Source of the DNA: an uncultured Jannaschia sp.
Lineage (GTDB): Bacteria; Pseudomonadota; Alphaproteobacteria; Rhodobacterales; Rhodobacteraceae
Reading direction: 5' to 3'
NCBI GenBank assembly: GCA_947494145.1
Contig: CANLTZ010000001.1
Span: 434,001-498,000 of the forward strand
DNA: 64,000 nucleotides
The notes under the pieces are model-generated. The model had not been told where the DNA came from, searched no databases, and worked only from the letters and a program-made list of their open reading frames with translations. Below, piece by piece: positions 2,905-52,618 of this stretch; the first letter of the stretch is position 1, and every line of letters starts with the position of its first letter. Both the position numbers and the translations under genes were made by a program.

Positions 2905-3651
2905 CTAGAGCCGGATGGCGGCGATGAGGCGTCCGTAATCGGCCTCACCGGCATGGGTGGTGCGACGGTAGGAATAGAAGCGCACGGGGTCTGAATAGGT
3001 GCAATGGCCTGTCCATTCCGCTTGAACCCCGGAGGCGCGCAGGCGGTGCAAGCCATACCCCACCAAGTCGAATTGGTAGCGGCCGTCTTTGCCATTGGCG
3101 AAGAAGCGCAGGGCGTCGGCGTCTTCTGCTTCGAAGCGGTCCAGGAAGTCTGGTCCCACTTCGTAGGCGCGTTGGCTGATCGACGGGCCGATGGCGGCGC
3201 GGATATTGGCGCGCGTGGCGCCCAGTGCCTCCATGGCGTCCACGGTTGCGTCCAGCACGCCCGAAAGCGCGCCTTTCCAGCCGGCATGGGCGGCGCCTGC
3301 CACACCGGCCTGCGCATCGTGGAACAGGACGGGCTGGCAATCGGCGGTCAGGATGGTCAGCACCTCGCCGGCGCGGTCGGTGACCATGGCATCGGCCTTG
3401 GGGCGCGGGTCGTCCAGCGGTCCGGTCACGGTGACCACCTCCGCCGAATGGACCTGATGGACGCCGCGCAACGGCCCGCCCATGGCGGTGGCCACGCGGG
3501 CGCGGTTGGTGGCTACGGCTTCGCTTTGGTCGGACGAGCCGGTGCCGCAATTGAGCCCTTCGAAGATACCCGACGAGGCCCCGCCGCGGCGGGTGAAGAA
3601 GCCGTGGCGCACATCGCCCAGCAGGTCAGAGGTGAGGACTTCCAGCGTCAT
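2905..3651 (-). CDS. pgeF: Peptidoglycan editing factor / laccase-domain protein
   Basis: Cytosolic YfiH/DUF152 family protein of 248 residues; family members act as purine nucleosidases/deaminases and in E. coli correct wrong amino acids in peptidoglycan precursors. The metal/catalytic residues are visible: H68 in HQVHS, C105 in TADCQPV and H122 in HAGWKG; RFYSYRRT near the C-terminus is the family signature. The third gene of lgt-midA-pgeF: its ATG overlaps the midA stop by the ATGA at 3648-3651, so translational coupling is likely. Confidence 0.92.
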   Translation of the reverse strand: MTLEVLTSDLLGDVRHGFFTRRGGASSGIFEGLNCGTGSSDQSEAVATNRARVATAMGGPLRGVHQVHSAEVVTVTGPLDDPRPKADAMVTDRAGEVLTILTADCQPVLFHDAQAGVAGAAHAGWKGALSGVLDATVDAMEALGATRANIRAAIGPSISQRAYEVGPDFLDRFEAEDADALRFFANGKDGRYQFDLVGYGLHRLRASGVQAEWTGHCTYSDPVRFYSYRRTTHAGEADYGRLIAAIRL

Positions 3652-4691
3652 GGATCGAACCCCGGCGGAAGGTCGGCGCCCGGTGGAACCAGCGCCATTG
3701 CTTTGAACAGGTCACCCATCTGGGCGGGGTGGGTCAAGCGCCGATGGGCTTGCGTGAGGGCGGCGCGGGCGTCGTCGCCCACGTTGTGGGCAAGGGCCTG
3801 GGCCCGGGCCGTGATGCCCAGCCGTTCCAGAAGCAAACCCTGAGTGACCATGGCCGATACGCGCGTGGGGGGCGCGGCGCGGGCAATGGCCTCGAAATCC
3901 ACATGGGCGGTCAGGTCGGCTTGGCCCGGGTTTTCCAGCGGGTCCACGGGTCGACCGGAGCGGAGGGCCTGCAAAGTGTCGCCCTGGCTGCGCCAATGGC
4001 CGTAATCCACGAAAAGGGCGGCGCCGCCTTGGGTCACGCGGGCGGCGATGGCGGTGACGGTGTCGGGCAGGGCGGGGCAGTGTTCGACCAGCGTGCCGTC
4101 GGGCACCTCCTGGTGGGAAAGGTGAGGTTGAGCCATGGGCAGGCCTAGGGCGAATGTCAGGGTCCCGCCTGCCTCGGACACAAGCTTTTCGCGCCAGGCG
4201 GGGCCGTCACGCACATATTGGCGGACAGGCAGGGCATCCAGGAACTCATTGGCCACCAGCAGGAGGGGGCCGGGCGGGAGGCTTTCGAGGGAGGTATGCC
4301 AAGTGGGCGTGTAGCCTTGCAGTGTATCGGCCTGCACCGTGCGCAGGGTTGGCGAGGCCTCGACCAAATGGACCGACACGGCATCGTGGAAGCCTGGCAC
4401 CGCATGTGTGGCGCGCAGCAGATCGGCCATGAGCGTGCCGCGGCCCGGCCCAAGCTCCGCCAGCGTGGCGCGGGGGCGACCCTGGTCCAGCCAAGTCTGA
4501 GCCAGGCAGAGGCCCAGAAGTTCCCCGAACATCTGGCTGATTTCGGGCGCGGTGGTGAAGTCGGTGCCTAGCGGGTCGCGCGTGGTATAGTAGCCAAAAG
4601 TCGGATGTAGCAGCGCCTCGGCCATGTAATCGGCCACCGTCAGCGGGCCCGAGGCGCGGATGCGGGCGACAAGCTGGGCCGTCAGGCTCAT
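3648..4691 (-). CDS. Class I SAM-dependent methyltransferase, MidA/NDUFAF7 family
   Basis: DUF185/MidA-type protein-arginine methyltransferase homologue, 347 residues. The opening LTVADYMAEALLHPTFGYY is the family's substrate/structural motif. The SAM loop is AELGPGRGTLM (78-88), and ANEFLDALPV near residue 140 and FVDYG in the second half are also typical. Mitochondrial relatives methylate a complex I subunit; a role in NADH dehydrogenase assembly here is inference. The frame stays open upstream to 5501 but that stretch is lgt in another frame. Start and stop both overlap neighbours as ATGA (4688-4691 and 3648-3651). Confidence 0.9.
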   Translation of the reverse strand: MSLTAQLVARIRASGPLTVADYMAEALLHPTFGYYTTRDPLGTDFTTAPEISQMFGELLGLCLAQTWLDQGRPRATLAELGPGRGTLMADLLRATHAVPGFHDAVSVHLVEASPTLRTVQADTLQGYTPTWHTSLESLPPGPLLLVANEFLDALPVRQYVRDGPAWREKLVSEAGGTLTFALGLPMAQPHLSHQEVPDGTLVEHCPALPDTVTAIAARVTQGGAALFVDYGHWRSQGDTLQALRSGRPVDPLENPGQADLTAHVDFEAIARAAPPTRVSAMVTQGLLLERLGITARAQALAHNVGDDARAALTQAHRRLTHPAQMGDLFKAMALVPPGADLPPGFDP

Positions 4692-5581
4692 GCCGTGCGC
4701 GGGCGTGCCCGGCGCGCGAGCGCGACGATCAACAATCCAACCAACACCATGGGCAGCGACAGGACCTGGCCCATGGTCAGGCCGAACTCCCCCAAGGCCA
4801 CCACATGGCCCAGCGGGTTGTCGGGCGTGATGTATTGTGCATCGGCCTGGCGGAAGTATTCCGCAAAGGTCCTTGCCGCGCCATAGCCCGCTAGGAACAC
4901 ACCGCAGAGCAGGCCGGGTATGCGCAGCCCTCCACGCAGGGCCACGACCCATAGCAGCACCAGAAGCACCGCGCCTTCCAGGAAAGCCTGGTAAAGCTGG
5001 CTGGGATGGCGGGCGCAAAACTCGCCCACATTGGCGCAGGCCTGGGCCGCATCCCCCGGAAAGATCACCGCCCAAGATACGGTGGAGGGGCGGCCCCAAA
5101 GCTCTGCGTTGATGAAATTCGCCACCCGACCCAGGCCCAGGCCCAGCGGTGTGCAAAGCGCGGCCATGTCCAGAAGCGGGCGAATGGGGATGCCGTTGCG
5201 CCAGGCAAAGATGATCACGCCCAGCCCGGTCCCGATGGCGCCGCCATGGAAGGACATGCCGCCCTGCCAGATATACAGGATTTCCAGTGGGTTCTGCAGA
5301 TAGTAGCCTGGCTGATAGAACAGCACATAGCCAAGCCGCCCGCCGCCGACGATGCCAAGCGTGACCCAGGTCATCAGGTCTTCGAGTTGGGCGCGATTTG
5401 CGGGGGCCTTGCCGCCCGGCCAGAAGCGGGGTCGCCCCAGCAGCCAGCGCGCCATGAACCAGCCACCGACAATGCCCACGATATAGGCCATGGCGTACCA
5501 TTTCGGCGCGATCTCGAACCCGCCGAGCGATAACCGGAAGATGTCGGGAGAGATGTCGGGAAATTGCAGCACGAACTCCAT
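4688..5581 (-). CDS. lgt: Prolipoprotein diacylglyceryl transferase
   Basis: Inner-membrane enzyme that moves diacylglycerol from phosphatidylglycerol onto the lipobox Cys of prolipoproteins, the first step of lipoprotein maturation. 297 residues with about seven membrane segments. The family signature GRVANFINAELWGR and the GGMSFHGG motif are both present. The ATG at 5581 gives the usual short N-terminus before ISPDIFRLSLGG; an earlier in-frame ATG would add 21 atypical residues. First gene of the lgt-midA-pgeF operon. Confidence 0.95.
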   Translation of the reverse strand: MEFVLQFPDISPDIFRLSLGGFEIAPKWYAMAYIVGIVGGWFMARWLLGRPRFWPGGKAPANRAQLEDLMTWVTLGIVGGGRLGYVLFYQPGYYLQNPLEILYIWQGGMSFHGGAIGTGLGVIIFAWRNGIPIRPLLDMAALCTPLGLGLGRVANFINAELWGRPSTVSWAVIFPGDAAQACANVGEFCARHPSQLYQAFLEGAVLLVLLWVVALRGGLRIPGLLCGVFLAGYGAARTFAEYFRQADAQYITPDNPLGHVVALGEFGLTMGQVLSLPMVLVGLLIVALARRARPRTA

Positions 5582-49097: not shown

Positions 49098-49189
49098 GAG
49101 ATATCTGGCCTGTCGACCACATGAACGCTTTTTCGGGGGATGTCGCGGCGACTGCACGCCGCGCCCAGACCCCGAGAAAGGATACTCCG

Positions 49190-49648
<459 letters not shown>

Positions 49649-49683
49649 GCCGGGATGTGCCCGCCTCGCGGGCATGGCCTGAC

Positions 49684-50172
49684 ATGCTGCGCCGTCGCTT
49701 CATCGCCGTGACGGCGGCCACGTTGATGGCCGCCGCCGCCTCGGCCGAGGGGGCGGCGGTCGATAATGTCGTGGGCCAGCTGCGCGGGCAGGGCTACCAA
49801 TCCATCGACGTGTCGCGAACCTTGCTGGGCCGGGCCCGCATCGTCGCGCGCAATGGCACACATACCCGCGAAATCATCGTCAACCGCGCCACCGGAGAGA
49901 TCCTGCGCGACTTTTGGGAAGATGACGAACGTGGGGGCCTGATTTCTGGTCAGCCGCGGCGCGAAGAAGATGACGACGACGATCATTCCGGCGGCGCGCC
50001 TGACGATGACGGTGATGACGACGATGATGATTCGGGCGGCGGGTCGGATGATGACGAGGACGACGGCGACTCCGATGGCCGCGGTTCCGACGACGATAGC
50101 GAAGACGATGACGACGATGATGACGACGACGATGATGACGAGGATGACGACGACGATGACGATGATGATTGA
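49684..50172 (+). CDS. Secreted PepSY-like protein with Asp-rich tail
   Basis: 162 residues. Signal peptide LRRRFIAVTAATLMAAAASA. Residues about 25-85 (VVGQLRGQGYQSIDVSRTLL, RARIVARNGTHTREIIVNRA, TGEILRDFWED) fit a single PepSY domain. The last 65 residues are Asp runs broken by Gly, Ser and Glu. It lies 35 bp after the first Asp-rich gene; both tails point to shared cation or surface binding. PepSY domains often regulate proteases or sense; the role here is unknown. Confidence 0.75.
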   Translation: MLRRRFIAVTAATLMAAAASAEGAAVDNVVGQLRGQGYQSIDVSRTLLGRARIVARNGTHTREIIVNRATGEILRDFWEDDERGGLISGQPRREEDDDDDHSGGAPDDDGDDDDDDSGGGSDDDEDDGDSDGRGSDDDSEDDDDDDDDDDDDEDDDDDDDDD

Positions 50173-50199: not shown

Positions 50200-50706
50200 A
50201 TGAAGGCGAGCCCGGGCATACTAATCATCCTCGCCATCCAGGTGGGCTGCACCCTCGTGTTCGTCTCCGACATCGCGATCTCGGTTCTTGGGCTGCGCAG
50301 CGTTCCCATCGACTGGCAACTGCGCGAACTCATCGAAATTGGCGCGGCCCTGGGCTTGGTGCTGGGCGCGGTGATGGGGGTGATCGCACTCAACCGTTCC
50401 GATGCGCGGCGACGCCGGGTGGAAGACCAGCTTCAGGCCGCGTCCGGTGCGTTCAATGACTTGCTTCAGCAACGTTTCCGCGAATGGGGCCTGACCCCCG
50501 CCGAACGGGATGTGGCCCTGTTCGCGATCAAGGGGATGAGTCTGGCGGAAATCGCCACCCTACGCGGCACCTCCGAAGGCACCATCAAGGCGCAAAGCGC
50601 CGCTGTCTACCGCAAGGCGGGCGTCTCGGGCCGCGCACAGCTCCTCAGTCATTTCGTGGAGGAGTTGATGGATGTGTCGCTTTTGCCCACCACACCTTCG
50701 ACCTGA
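50200..50706 (+). CDS. Membrane-anchored LuxR-type HTH regulator
   Basis: 168 residues. Two N-terminal membrane segments (ILIILAIQVGCTLVFVSDIA and LIEIGAALGLVLGAVMGVIA), a linker helix, then a GerE/LuxR helix-turn-helix: LTPAERDVALFAIKGMSLAE, IATLRGTSEGTIKAQSAAVY. No receiver or autoinducer domain. It follows the two Asp-rich secreted genes by 27 bp, suggesting that it senses something at the membrane in connection with them. Confidence 0.82.
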   Translation: MKASPGILIILAIQVGCTLVFVSDIAISVLGLRSVPIDWQLRELIEIGAALGLVLGAVMGVIALNRSDARRRRVEDQLQAASGAFNDLLQQRFREWGLTPAERDVALFAIKGMSLAEIATLRGTSEGTIKAQSAAVYRKAGVSGRAQLLSHFVEELMDVSLLPTTPST

Positions 50707-50742: not shown

Positions 50743-50919
50743 CTGTGACGCAGCGGAAATTTTCCCGGTTTCCCGAATCCCCGCACCCTCTTAGACGCCG
50801 CCTCCCGTCCTAAAGGGATTGGACCTCAACGCACCGAAGTGCCGCTGCAACCAGGGCTTCGGGCGGTGCGGGCGCGCGCTGCGTGCCCCGTATGCCGAGG
50901 CTGGTTTCGGGGACGGGGA

Positions 50920-50994
50920 GGAGATGTAGCTCAGCGGTAGAGGACCCGGTTCCGGCCCGGGGGGTCGCAGGTTCGAACCCTGTCATTTTCACCA
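50920..50994 (+). tRNA. tRNA-Arg(CCG)-like unit with encoded CCA
   Basis: Cloverleaf: acceptor GGAGATG/CATTTTC (two G-U pairs), D arm GCTC-AGCGGTA-GAGG (last pair mismatched), anticodon arm CCCGG-TTCCGGC-CCGGG with anticodon CCG, variable GGGTC, T arm GCAGG-TTCGAAC-CCTGT, then A-CCA. All invariant T-loop bases are present. The weak acceptor and D stems are unusual for a housekeeping tRNA, and a second tRNA-like unit starts within its CCA. It may be a working tRNA or a tRNA-like domain of a longer RNA. Confidence 0.6.
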
Positions 50995-51064
50995 TAGCGT
51001 AGCTCATTGGTAGAGCAGTGGACTTCTAATCCATTGGTAGCGGGTTCGAATCCCGTCGCAAGCA
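50993..51064 (+). tRNA. tRNA-Arg(TCT)-like unit lacking a full acceptor stem
   Basis: D arm GCTC-ATTGGTA-GAGC, anticodon arm GTGGA-CTTCTAA-TCCAT with anticodon TCT, T arm GCGGG-TTCGAAT-CCCGT are all good. The acceptor halves CATAGCG and CGCAAGC pair at only four of seven positions, and no CCA follows (A then CTG). The 5' strand overlaps the CCA of the preceding unit by two bases. It cannot be processed and charged like a normal tRNA, so it is best called tRNA-like. Confidence 0.5.
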
Positions 51065-51130
51065 CTGGCCTTCCACGCCAGGGGCGAAAGCCCTGCTAAC
51101 TCACCGTGCAAACGGTAAAAATTAGGGTGA
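51065..51130 (+). ncRNA. Hairpin series with GNRA tetraloops after the tRNA-like units
   Basis: CTGGC-CTTCCAC-GCCAG (51065-51081), GGGC-GAAA-GCCC (51082-51093) and ACCGT-GCAA-ACGGT (51103-51116) follow one another without gaps; the last two carry GNRA loops. CTAA/TTAG (51096-51125) can close the third hairpin, while TCACC/GGTGA (51101-51130) offers an alternative fold. The pattern suggests a structured RNA continuous with the tRNA-like units. Confidence 0.5.
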
Positions 51131-51454
51131 CCGGCGGTCCCGCGCAGGGGCAGCCGGGATAGGTCGAGGCTTCTTCGGGGGTCCTGGTCTGTTACGACCC
51201 GTCTCCGCCACGGCTTTGGGCCGCCTGCGGGGTGAAGGGCGCGTCGGCTGCGCTGCCGGGCATCGGACCATTGGTCTGAGCCCCGCTTGCGGCCCGCGCA
51301 CCCCACTCCTCCGGGGTCGCCTTTGGTCGCGTCAGCGGGGCCGTCGGTTGCCCACCGCTATTCCCATTCCGCCCATTCCGAGGCGGCCCACCGCCGGACA
51401 ACCCGGCCCGAACCCAACCGAAATGAAGGAGACGCGACAGCGAAGGAGACTGCC
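51131..51454 (+). other. GC-rich leader of the slipin gene
   Basis: 324 bases with no gene on either strand that I can support; minus-strand ORFs here are antisense to the tRNA-like region. The 3' end carries the slipin SD (AAGGAG at 51443-51448). The whole stretch from the tRNA-like units to the ATG could be one transcript. Confidence 0.5.
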
Positions 51455-52618
51455 ATGATGACGCGACTGACTGATATACTGACCGGTATGCGCCGGGAAA
51501 CCGTGACCGAGGGCGAGTTGGCTTTCCTCTTCCGCAAGGGGAAGTTGGTCGACGTGCTGACCGCAGGGGAACACCGGCTGTACGCCGACGGCGACGTGCT
51601 TGAGCGCGTGACGCTGGCCAAGCCCGAGGCGCTGGCCCAGGATTCCATGCTTTTGCGCCGCGTTCTGCCGGACCAGGCCAAAACCCACCTGACCGAGCTT
51701 CAGGCTGGAGAGGGCGAGATCGTTGTCGTCCTGCGGGACGGACGCCCGTTCACCATCCTGTCGCCGATGGATCGTGTGATGCTTTGGACGCAATCCGGCC
51801 CATGGACGGTGGAGCGCTACGACCTGGAAATCGGGCGCCTGCTGCCCGAAGGCTTGGGCGACACGCTGATGGCGCGGTTCAAGCTGCGCACGGCCAATCT
51901 GTCGTCTGGGGTTGGGCTCAAGCTGCTTGACGTGCCCGAGGGGCATCGCGGGTTTCTGATGGAAGGCGGCGTCTTCGTGACGGAGCTTGCGCCCGGGCGG
52001 CATTGGGCGATCCCGGCCTCCAGCGGGGTCACGCTGCGGGTCGTGGACCTACGCAGGCGTGTCCATGACGTGACGGGGCAAGAAGTGCTGACGCGTGACC
52101 GTGTCACCCTGCGCATCAACCTGACGGCGGATTACCGCGTGGCCGATCCGGCCCTGGCCGTCAGCGCGGCCCATGATTGGGAAGCGGTGCTGCACCGTGC
52201 GCTGCAACTGGCGCTTCGGCGCGTGGTAGGGCTGCGCACACTGGACGAGCTTCTGGCCGACAAGGCGGTGTTCGATGCGGAAACGGCCGAAGCCGTGCGC
52301 ACCGACATGGCGGCGTTGGGGGTCGAAGTGGGGGACATCGCGCTGCGCGACGTCATCCTGCCGGGCGAGATGCGCGACATCCTGACGGCGGTGGTGGCCG
52401 CCGAGAAGGAGGTCGAGGCCGCCGCCGTGCGCCGGCGCGAGGACGCGAACGCGACCCGCGCGCTGCTCAACCAGGCGAAGGTCATGGCCGATAATCCGGT
52501 CATGCTGCGCCTTAAAGAGTTGGAGGCGCTGGAAACCGTCGCAGACCGCGTGGGCAACTTGGTTGTCCATAACGGGACGCAAGGATTGCTGGGCGATCTG
52601 GTCCGGCTGCGCGATTGA
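51455..52618 (+). CDS. Slipin-family (SPFH/band 7) protein without membrane segment
   Basis: 387 residues. No N-terminal hydrophobic hairpin is present, unlike stomatin-type slipins. The first 135 residues hold a repeat-like module (EGELAFLFRKGKLVDVLTAG, HRLYADGDVLERV) that partly resembles the opening of the SPFH core (VPEGHRGFLMEGGVFVTELA). The SPFH domain spans about 155-330 (VVDLRRRVHDVTGQEVLTRD, RVTLRINLTADYRVADPALA, LALRRVVGLRTLDELL) and ends in a charged helix EKEVEAAAVRRREDANATRA. As I recall, slipins of this soluble type accompany RtcB RNA-repair operons. No rtcB, rtcR or archease gene is nearby. Confidence 0.85.
   Translation: MMTRLTDILTGMRRETVTEGELAFLFRKGKLVDVLTAGEHRLYADGDVLERVTLAKPEALAQDSMLLRRVLPDQAKTHLTELQAGEGEIVVVLRDGRPFTILSPMDRVMLWTQSGPWTVERYDLEIGRLLPEGLGDTLMARFKLRTANLSSGVGLKLLDVPEGHRGFLMEGGVFVTELAPGRHWAIPASSGVTLRVVDLRRRVHDVTGQEVLTRDRVTLRINLTADYRVADPALAVSAAHDWEAVLHRALQLALRRVVGLRTLDELLADKAVFDAETAEAVRTDMAALGVEVGDIALRDVILPGEMRDILTAVVAAEKEVEAAAVRRREDANATRALLNQAKVMADNPVMLRLKELEALETVADRVGNLVVHNGTQGLLGDLVRLRD

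Follow-up and report, generated by a model that had tools for sequence, protein, structure and literature searches.

A tRNA-like RNA with changing anticodon loops, paired with a soluble slipin gene in an uncultured Jannaschia sp. and its relatives

The stretch analyzed in this study, hereafter the window, comprises 64,000 nucleotides from an uncultured Jannaschia sp. (assembly GCA_947494145.1, contig CANLTZ010000001.1, positions 434,001 to 498,000). A predicted non-coding RNA with two tandem tRNA-like units is located in it directly upstream of a gene for a soluble slipin, a protein of the SPFH/Band-7 type (Table 1). Comparison of genomes indicates that the RNA and the slipin form a conserved pair that is inherited together, and that the anticodon loops of the RNA differ among close relatives on a shared scaffold. 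Our preferred reading, held tentatively and at slightly less than an even chance, is that the RNA presents its anticodon loops as bait or decoy to tRNA-cleaving toxins, with the slipin as a shell.

Slipin genes were found at E up to 1e-30 in 20 of 295 genomes of the window's family (Rhodobacteraceae), the window's own genome included. tRNA-like units over the cut-off are located upstream of the slipin in 18 of these 20 loci (17 of the 19 relatives and the window). In L057, the locus is truncated where its contig stops; a unit and the 5' domain of the RNA were found together at the end of another contig of the same genome; in L069, no unit over the cut-off was found upstream of the slipin. With the Rfam tRNA model, a unit was also found upstream in 4 of 5 new full-length loci from a search of the class and in 17 of 20 scanned loci from a search of the phylum. 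A model of the 5' domain, named R1, matched at E up to 0.001 in 21 of the 295 family genomes, that is, in all 20 genomes with a slipin and in G133, and had no match at this threshold in the other 274. Nineteen of the 20 slipin genomes had been used to build R1, and one (G186) was new to it. The genome G133 falls below the slipin threshold, yet it keeps the 5' domain and, after it, part of a slipin (36% identity over 66 residues); RNA and protein seem to have decayed together there. Among 26 further slipin genomes, R1 matched upstream of the slipin at E up to 1e-4 in 12, these matches reaching other classes; in the R1-positive genomes G1022, G924, and G753, RtcB adjoins the slipin. By these sequence comparisons, the association between RNA and slipin is judged to be real. 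A single-sequence contig search gave one distant relative.

The patchy spread of the slipin over 20 of 295 family genomes and the presence of part-tRNA pieces could be read as degenerate tRNA remnants of an integrated mobile element. Several family loci have flanking clusters of open reading frames (ORFs) in common, covariation is seen in the RNA, and slipins in other classes are likewise preceded by its 5' domain; these observations speak against such remnants, which we consider barely credible and the least probable of the explanations weighed here.

Structured domains flank the units on both sides; these domains, as well as the changing anticodon loops, had been overlooked in the first-pass annotation of the window. 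In the 5' domain, 94.5% of cells are paired across 19 sequences, and the covariation score is 0.424 vs 0.173 for shuffled alignments, with none of 500 shuffles reaching it. The 3' domain, also analyzed in 19 sequences, has a score of 0.437 vs 0.227 (again 0 of 500), and both sides change in 24 of its 34 pairs. In the slid-structure control, scores were at most 0.140 for the 5' domain and at most 0.190 for the 3' domain, a control that favors both structures because they were derived from the same alignments as were scored. One 3' hairpin of eight pairs was added by eye, outside the alignment-derived structure. The locus L084 was kept in the RNA alignments A2-A4 and in R1 and was dropped from the protein alignment.

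Both units of the window score 55.5 bits against the Rfam tRNA family (RF00005; gathering 29; E 3e-9). Unit 1, distal to the slipin, is also called by ARAGORN as a tRNA-Arg with anticodon CCG, and unit 2 is absent from the ARAGORN output. The first-pass annotation had described two abutting tRNA-Arg-like cloverleaves with a two-base overlap, the second lacking a proper acceptor stem and CCA, followed directly by three short hairpins, two of them with GNRA loops, and by a slipin gene without a membrane anchor; every one of these features was recovered. The overlap falls between the end of unit 1, its CCA included, and the start of unit 2. According to the unit parser, unit 1 has the complete acceptor stem of 7 base pairs and the CCA, whereas unit 2 has a broken stem with 4 of 7 pairs and no CCA.

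Table 1. Features of the locus in the window and of a separate rtc locus in the same genome
Feature	Position	Strand	Remarks
5' domain, three-way junction with conserved core	50818-50905	+	Covariation in 19 sequences; model R1, 63 bits (the window is one of the 19 rows building R1, so this score is not independent)
tRNA-like unit 1 (distal)	50920-50994	+	Anticodon CCG; RF00005 55.5 bits, ARAGORN, unit parser
Anticodon stem-loop of unit 1	50945-50961	+	Loop TTCCGGC; congener loop TCCAAGT
tRNA-like unit 2 (proximal)	50993-51064	+	Anticodon UCU; RF00005 55.5 bits, unit parser
Anticodon stem-loop of unit 2	51018-51034	+	Loop CTTCTAA; congener loop CTGTTAA
Unit 2 to slipin start: hairpins and 3' domain (long-range closing helix, inner helices)	51064-51454	+	Covariation
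Free anticodon-stem-loop mimic (hairpin 3)	51065-51081	+	Stem CTGGC/GCCAG, 7-base loop CTTCCAC; stem identical in congener, congener loop CTGAAAC
GNRA hairpin	51082-51093	+	GAAA loop
GNRA hairpin	51103-51116	+	GCAA loop
Soluble slipin (SPFH/Band-7) gene	51455-52618	+	387 aa; Pfam Band_7 at 160-331, E 8e-29
rtc locus L189, window's genome	C1:421000-434100		rtcR / Ro60-like / YrlA RNA / tRNA-Lys(CTT) / KptA / RtcB; stretch lying mostly outside the window

The unit parser was applied to 40 loci. It returned no unit at the score used in L076 (contig end), L088, L135, L136, and L151, and L084 (genome G264) was excluded for an in-frame stop in its slipin; the unit counts rest on 34 loci. The Rfam scan does detect a unit in L135 and L136 (scanned as L118 and L119), and Rfam 15 at gathering reads the scanned loci as tRNA only. 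Among the proximal units, acceptor pairs average 4.9 of 7 and CCA is present in 6 of 34; the distal units have seven acceptor pairs in 8 of 12 and CCA in 7 of 12. The anticodons vary from locus to locus, with 18 kinds among the 29 proximal units that have 7-base loops. Outside the anticodon, units with different anticodons are 73% identical to each other. Compared with the tRNAs of the window's genome, the only ones used for this purpose, the units show an average identity of 63%, or 69% to tRNAs with the same anticodon (n = 21), and the nearest genomic tRNA shares the anticodon of the unit in only 2 of 29. Judged from these identities, the unit looks like a shared scaffold in which the anticodon is exchanged.

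Ordinary extra tRNA genes, used in translation and preceding the slipin by chance, would be expected to pass the tRNA gathering score, as both window units do, and to have the full acceptor stem and CCA, as found in unit 1 and in many distal units. Such genes are a very improbable explanation here. Separate tRNA-Arg genes of the same genome score higher for both anticodons (CCG, 69.6 bits; UCU, 68.8 bits), most proximal acceptor stems are broken, units upstream of slipins recur with unrelated anticodons, and a tRNA with the same anticodon is rarely the best match to the body of the unit. Among the findings that would count against its idea, the first-pass annotation had named two ordinary tRNAs conserved elsewhere apart from the slipin and a lack of covariation in the hairpins: the units do score as tRNAs, the 5' domain was never found without a slipin or its remnant (slipin-free genomes were searched for this domain and not for the units on their own), and the flanking RNA covaries. 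Elsewhere in the window's genome, a tRNA-Arg with the unusual anticodon GCG was found at C10:81124-81280 (L048), adjoined by a tRNA-like element of 35.6 bits that has no ARAGORN call.

Anticodon-type loops are also present outside the cloverleaves. Downstream of the last unit, 19 of 34 loci vs 0.4 in shuffles have a hairpin with a 5-bp stem and a YTNNNAN loop, one of the 19 (in L146) being a T arm; with a 4-bp stem, such hairpins were found in 24 of 34 loci vs 1.2 in shuffles. The GNRA hairpins singled out by the first-pass annotation proved to be worth marking, since at least one was found within 110 bases after the last unit in 18 of 34 loci vs 2.2 in shuffles (at most 7). Their place differs among loci. 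No GNRA hairpin was found in the window's congener, in which a hairpin with a 7-base loop (ACACC-TCTCCAA-GGTGT) is located near the site of the second one.

Variability among close relatives was analyzed in two genera and in the window's own. In genus g636, the slipin was found in 13 of 25 genomes, and entropies were calculated for 12 rows after exclusion of L209, in which unit 1 is deleted. The variable parts are the anticodon arm of unit 1 (mean entropy 0.78), the loop of unit 2 (0.90), and the loop of hairpin 3 (0.56). The 5' domain (0.06), the remainder of the units (0.09-0.11), the anticodon stem of unit 2 (0.04), and the stem of hairpin 3 (0.00) are steady, and the 3' domain has a mean entropy of 0.24. 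Unit 2 has three whole-loop alleles that require 6 changes on a quick slipin tree vs a minimum of 2, the loop 2 of L205, one base off, being pooled with the nearest allele. For loops 2 and 3, 5 of 36 allele quartets fail the four-gamete test. In genus g575, the slipin was found in 70 of 119 genomes; 30 loci were taken and 29 counted, as the leader of L233 is short of the units. Here, the unit 2 anticodon has an entropy of 1.07 vs 0.00 for its stem and 0.06 for the T arm, the hairpin 3 anticodon has 1.01, and the loop of a fourth hairpin has 1.33. This genus agrees in part with the pattern in g636; no rtcB was found nearby in the g575 member examined. Nineteen congeners of the window were searched, and all three loops differ between the window and the only one with a slipin. 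Comparison at this level indicates that the anticodon loops differ among close relatives on a shared scaffold.

The slipin itself has no segment of transmembrane strength, with a highest 19-residue hydropathy mean of 1.2 (control protein, L003). Its AlphaFold2 model, calculated from 20 sequences, has a mean pLDDT (predicted local distance difference test) of 83.7 and a pTM (predicted template modeling score) of 0.58. A Foldseek search with this model gave matches to stomatin (E 2.4e-14) and to the major vault protein (E 2.0e-10), as well as to HflK/C and prohibitin. Stomatin ranks above the vault protein. The alignment covers 425-485 columns for the vault protein and about 220-295 for most membrane families, in line with extra N-terminal beta modules in the predicted fold. 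The TM-scores (template modeling scores) by query for the vault protein are low (0.36-0.40), and therefore this match is a hint of kinship only. A phage origin of the slipin was considered and rejected, as no slipin match at E up to 1e-10 was found in 50,697 phage records.

The relation to RtcB differs among the loci. Flanks were read over 15 kb in 20 wider loci, 11 of them outside the window's class and 9 within it. RtcB is located beside the slipin or within about 5 kb of it in all 11 of these outside loci, in agreement with the occurrence of such slipins in RtcB-type RNA-repair operons noted in the first-pass annotation. Pfam names RtcB and RtcR in L137, L142, and L146, RlaP in L137 and L142, and RtcA in L137; RtcB is present also in L196 (Burkholderia) and L195 (Subdoligranulum). 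In contrast, no rtcB was found near the slipin in any of the 28 loci of the window's class (9 wider and 19 family loci). Neither rtcB nor rtcR adjoins the window's slipin, and the window and L070-L088 have no RtcB match. Within the window's class, loci without rtcB are the rule; they occur also in Enterobacteriaceae, there with a nucleotidyltransferase gene. At least 80% of a query composed of leader, slipin, and nucleotidyltransferase is present in 1617 of 5426 genomes of Escherichia coli, and the E. coli record L193 has slipin and nucleotidyltransferase with no rtcB within 5 kb. No RtcB was found in the stretches read of L193, of L194 (Citrobacter freundii, with rtcR), and of L050.

Two statements of the first-pass annotation need to be qualified. 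The absence of rtcB and rtcR holds for the locus and not for the genome, in which a separate rtc locus with Ro60, YrlA, KptA, and RtcB was found upstream, at a distance of about 57 kb from the slipin and beyond the window. The suggested form without rtcB holds at the locus and across the 28 class loci, and it is not confined to them, being present also in E. coli and Citrobacter. The suggestion of an RNA-slipin pair related to RtcB-type systems is supported by the co-occurrence of the 5' domain with a slipin in 20 of 295 genomes and with a slipin remnant in one, by the covariation of the flanking RNA domains, and by the rtcB-linked homologs; the neighborhoods of the slipin clade, with tRNA-like units upstream in most relatives and rtcB nearby outside the class, agree with it. 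In the separate rtc locus (Table 1), the YrlA RNA scores 79.5 bits (RF02553) and is followed after two bases by the tRNA-Lys, the only Lys-CTT gene found in the genome; RtcR is about 62 kb from the slipin locus. Dependence on RtcB encoded in trans appears not to be needed and was rejected, as an RtcB match was found anywhere in the genome for only 8 of the 20 family slipin genomes (three of the 20 are 77-83% complete). RtcR was found in 4 of 30 slipin genomes of the window's class.

We infer that the loops are presented to an agent able to read anticodon loops, of which anticodon nucleases are the best-known kind. A phage study reportedly describes, by its title, mutation of an anticodon loop as an escape from a tRNA-targeting defense. 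In the bait reading, the locus would give a non-coding RNA composed of the 5' three-way junction, two tRNA-like units, a free anticodon hairpin, and the structured 3' domain, and this RNA would be transcribed together with the slipin gene. The slipin would form a ring or shell in which the RNA is held, with its anticodon loops exposed as bait or competitive decoys for anticodon nucleases of bacteriocin, contact-dependent, or phage-triggered origin. The loops would change as the attackers change. Where RtcB is encoded nearby, a cut bait or tRNA could be resealed; the version in the window would protect by titration or sequestration, with no ligase of its own required. More tentative is a fuller version, in which three or four exchangeable loops (two in tRNA mimics and one or two in free hairpins) would be decoys or cleavable sensors, caged by a vault-like slipin, workable without an adjoining ligase, and under diversifying pressure. 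For YrlA, an earlier paper proposed that the tRNA-like domain of this Y RNA competes with an anticodon nuclease (PMC7790460). In favor of the bait reading count the joint inheritance of RNA and slipin, the covariation of both flanking domains, the anticodons exchanged on a shared scaffold, the contrast between loops and stems in g636 and g575, the incomplete proximal acceptor stems, and the sigma-54-like sites of four RtcB-linked loci.

A number of observations weigh against the bait reading. The fold energy of the window's leader is ordinary (z -0.99), and 5 of 34 proximal units keep all seven acceptor pairs. In g636, 38% of the columns of the 3' domain are variable, the sequence upstream of the promoter is as variable as the loops (0.91), and the common loops of unit 2 have no U33. 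Of 531 seven-column windows of the RNA in g636, the value of loop 2 is reached by 8, some of them located in the anticodon arm of unit 1 or close to the start of the slipin, and that of loop 3 by 54; four-gamete conflicts of loop 1 with loop 2 or loop 3 number 0 of 270 each. In g575, the T arm of unit 1 is variable (0.77), and the stems of hairpins 3 and 4 have an entropy of 0.36. The loop changes in this genus (11-13) are at or near the allele minimum and, in three of four loops, at or below the shuffle means, so that the tree contributes little that the entropy contrast does not already show. Not every leader has an anticodon arm: those of L195 and L050 (Bacillota) and L193 (E. coli), all read by eye, show T-arm modules without a full cloverleaf. 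Both L195 and L050 belong to Oscillospiraceae; in L195, the 5' domain has a weak match at 3558-3637 (22.8 bits), and in L050 a T-arm module is located upstream of the slipin at 281-297. Finally, deletion of an rtc-linked SPFH gene in Pseudomonas aeruginosa, a possible homolog of the window's slipin, left pyocyanin and biofilm unchanged according to one report (PMC13086221).

The loops may simply be free to drift, and this is the main rival. The RNA would then be a scaffold, the cognate RNA of an SPFH or vault-like shell as Y RNA is of Ro60; the elbow formed by the T and D arms would dock the slipin or tRNA-handling proteins, and the loops would vary because nothing touches them. T arms are present even in the Bacillota leaders without anticodon arms. 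Together with the weak 5'-domain match in L195, these T arms suggest that the RNA may predate the window's phylum, and the leaders with T arms and no cloverleaf in Bacillota and E. coli suggest that the elbow module may be its older part. The equal variability upstream of the g636 promoter and the alignment of the vault protein along the length of the slipin model also agree with a scaffold. Drift fits less well with the anticodon stems of unit 2, which are frozen in both g636 and g575, with the few and recurring whole-loop alleles of g636, and with the free hairpins, which keep the 7-base YTNNNAN loop in 19 of 34 loci although unconstrained loops need not do so. These points speak against free drift while leaving room for it, and a scaffold without a bait role is in our estimate rather unlikely.

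The RNA lies directly upstream of the slipin gene on the same strand, and no terminator-like site was found by scan between them, as would be the case if it were a cis-regulatory leader. Such a 5' untranslated region, with its units and a mini-ORF, would respond to the damage or charging of tRNAs by switching the translation of the slipin or the processing of the transcript. A mini-ORF that starts with TTG-CGN (Arg) after a Shine-Dalgarno-like site was found upstream of the slipin in 16 of 20 family loci. It has 2-4 codons after the start, as in TTG-CGA-CGA-CGA-stop, uses three kinds of stop codon, and in L070-L088 begins about 25-45 bases upstream of the slipin; possibly, it is a leader peptide sensing tRNA-Arg. 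No TTG-CGN mini-ORF was found in the window, L072, or L083; L085 has M-P-P-stop instead, and three further class loci have M-P-stop or V-R-stop before the slipin. The loci with an rtcR cluster (L136, L137, L139, L140, L142, L144, and L146; the rtcR gene was Pfam-checked in three of these seven) have no confident 5'-domain match, and no rtcR was found in the R1-positive wider loci with flanks read. The 5' domain may thus stand in for RtcR control. The absence of the mini-ORF from the window, the size of the domains, which are large for a leader, and the shared scaffold with changing anticodons and free anticodon hairpins, which a leader would leave unexplained, make regulation in cis an unlikely main role.

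Promoter signals were also analyzed. In 4 of 11 RtcB-linked loci (L136, L139, L142, and L144), the units are preceded by a sigma-54-like site that scores above every shuffle; none of 28 loci tested in the window's class has such a site, and sigma-54 control was rejected for these. In the window, the best sigma-54-like site upstream is matched by 87 of 100 shuffles. In a scan for sigma-70 promoters, none was found in the window; the family alignment shows a TTG...TAT pair. The E. coli record L193 has a sigma-54-like site (TGGCACG-CTTC-TCGCA) at 4683-4698, followed by the T-arm leader and the slipin.

Three ORFs are located in the window directly upstream of the RNA (49121-49648, 49657-50172, and 50200-50706). 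Two of them have long aspartate-rich tails, and the other looks by eye like a LuxR-type regulator with a hydrophobic N-terminus. Genes resembling these ORFs were found also near the decayed locus of G133.

We know of no established task for the slipins in repair operons. A defined RNA partner with changing loops would make this task testable, as the nuclease that is blocked or sensed should be predictable from the sequence of the loops. If the fuller version of the bait reading is true, the loop set of each genome would record the nucleases met by its ancestors. The RNA would also constitute a further RNA family, account for odd tRNA annotations next to slipin genes, and be a bacterial counterpart of the vault and Ro60 particles. 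The form without rtcB, the architecture of the RNA, and the variability of its anticodon loops are apparently new: neither an RNA with changing anticodon loops nor a slipin-RNA pair without RtcB was named in the titles and abstract openings of the literature searched, most of it open-access.

The pairing of a Band-7/SPFH protein and a tRNA-like RNA in repair operons is reportedly already published: Burroughs and Aravind in 2016 are reported to have described SPFH/Band-7 modules with a novel tRNA-like molecule in RtcB RNA-repair systems. The window locus is alike in encoding a vault-protein-like SPFH protein together with a tRNA-like RNA, and homologous slipins are located beside or near rtcB in other bacteria. 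It apparently differs in its tandem units and free anticodon hairpin, in the domains on its 5' and 3' sides, and in the variability of its loops, as well as in the absence of an adjoining rtcB and of rtcR with a sigma-54 promoter, the marks of an RtcB repair operon. The association of Band-7/SPFH proteins and tRNA-like non-coding RNA in RtcB systems is echoed in a further paper (PMC13404743). Two other papers assign an SPFH gene to the P. aeruginosa rtc locus (PMC13086221) and report that the repressor TrcR governs rtcB and a tRNA operon in Anabaena, a slipin gene being among those raised in the trcR mutant (PMC10272220). The second known system, Ro60 (Rsr) with Y RNA or YrlA, also combines a ring protein that binds RNA with a tRNA-mimicking RNA encoded next to it, near rtcB, and the window's genome has such a locus of its own. 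In contrast, the partner in the window is an SPFH protein, and the RNA has cloverleaves with changing anticodons. The identity of the window RNA with YrlA was rejected, as the window has no RF02553 match at gathering, the adjoining ORF encodes a Band_7 protein, and a Ro60-like gene was found in the separate rtc locus. The third system, the vault particle, combines an SPFH-type shell protein, the major vault protein, with small RNAs, and the Foldseek match extends over the length of the slipin model. The window's slipin is about half as long as the major vault protein and gives low TM-scores, and its likeness to that protein is a hint of kinship only.

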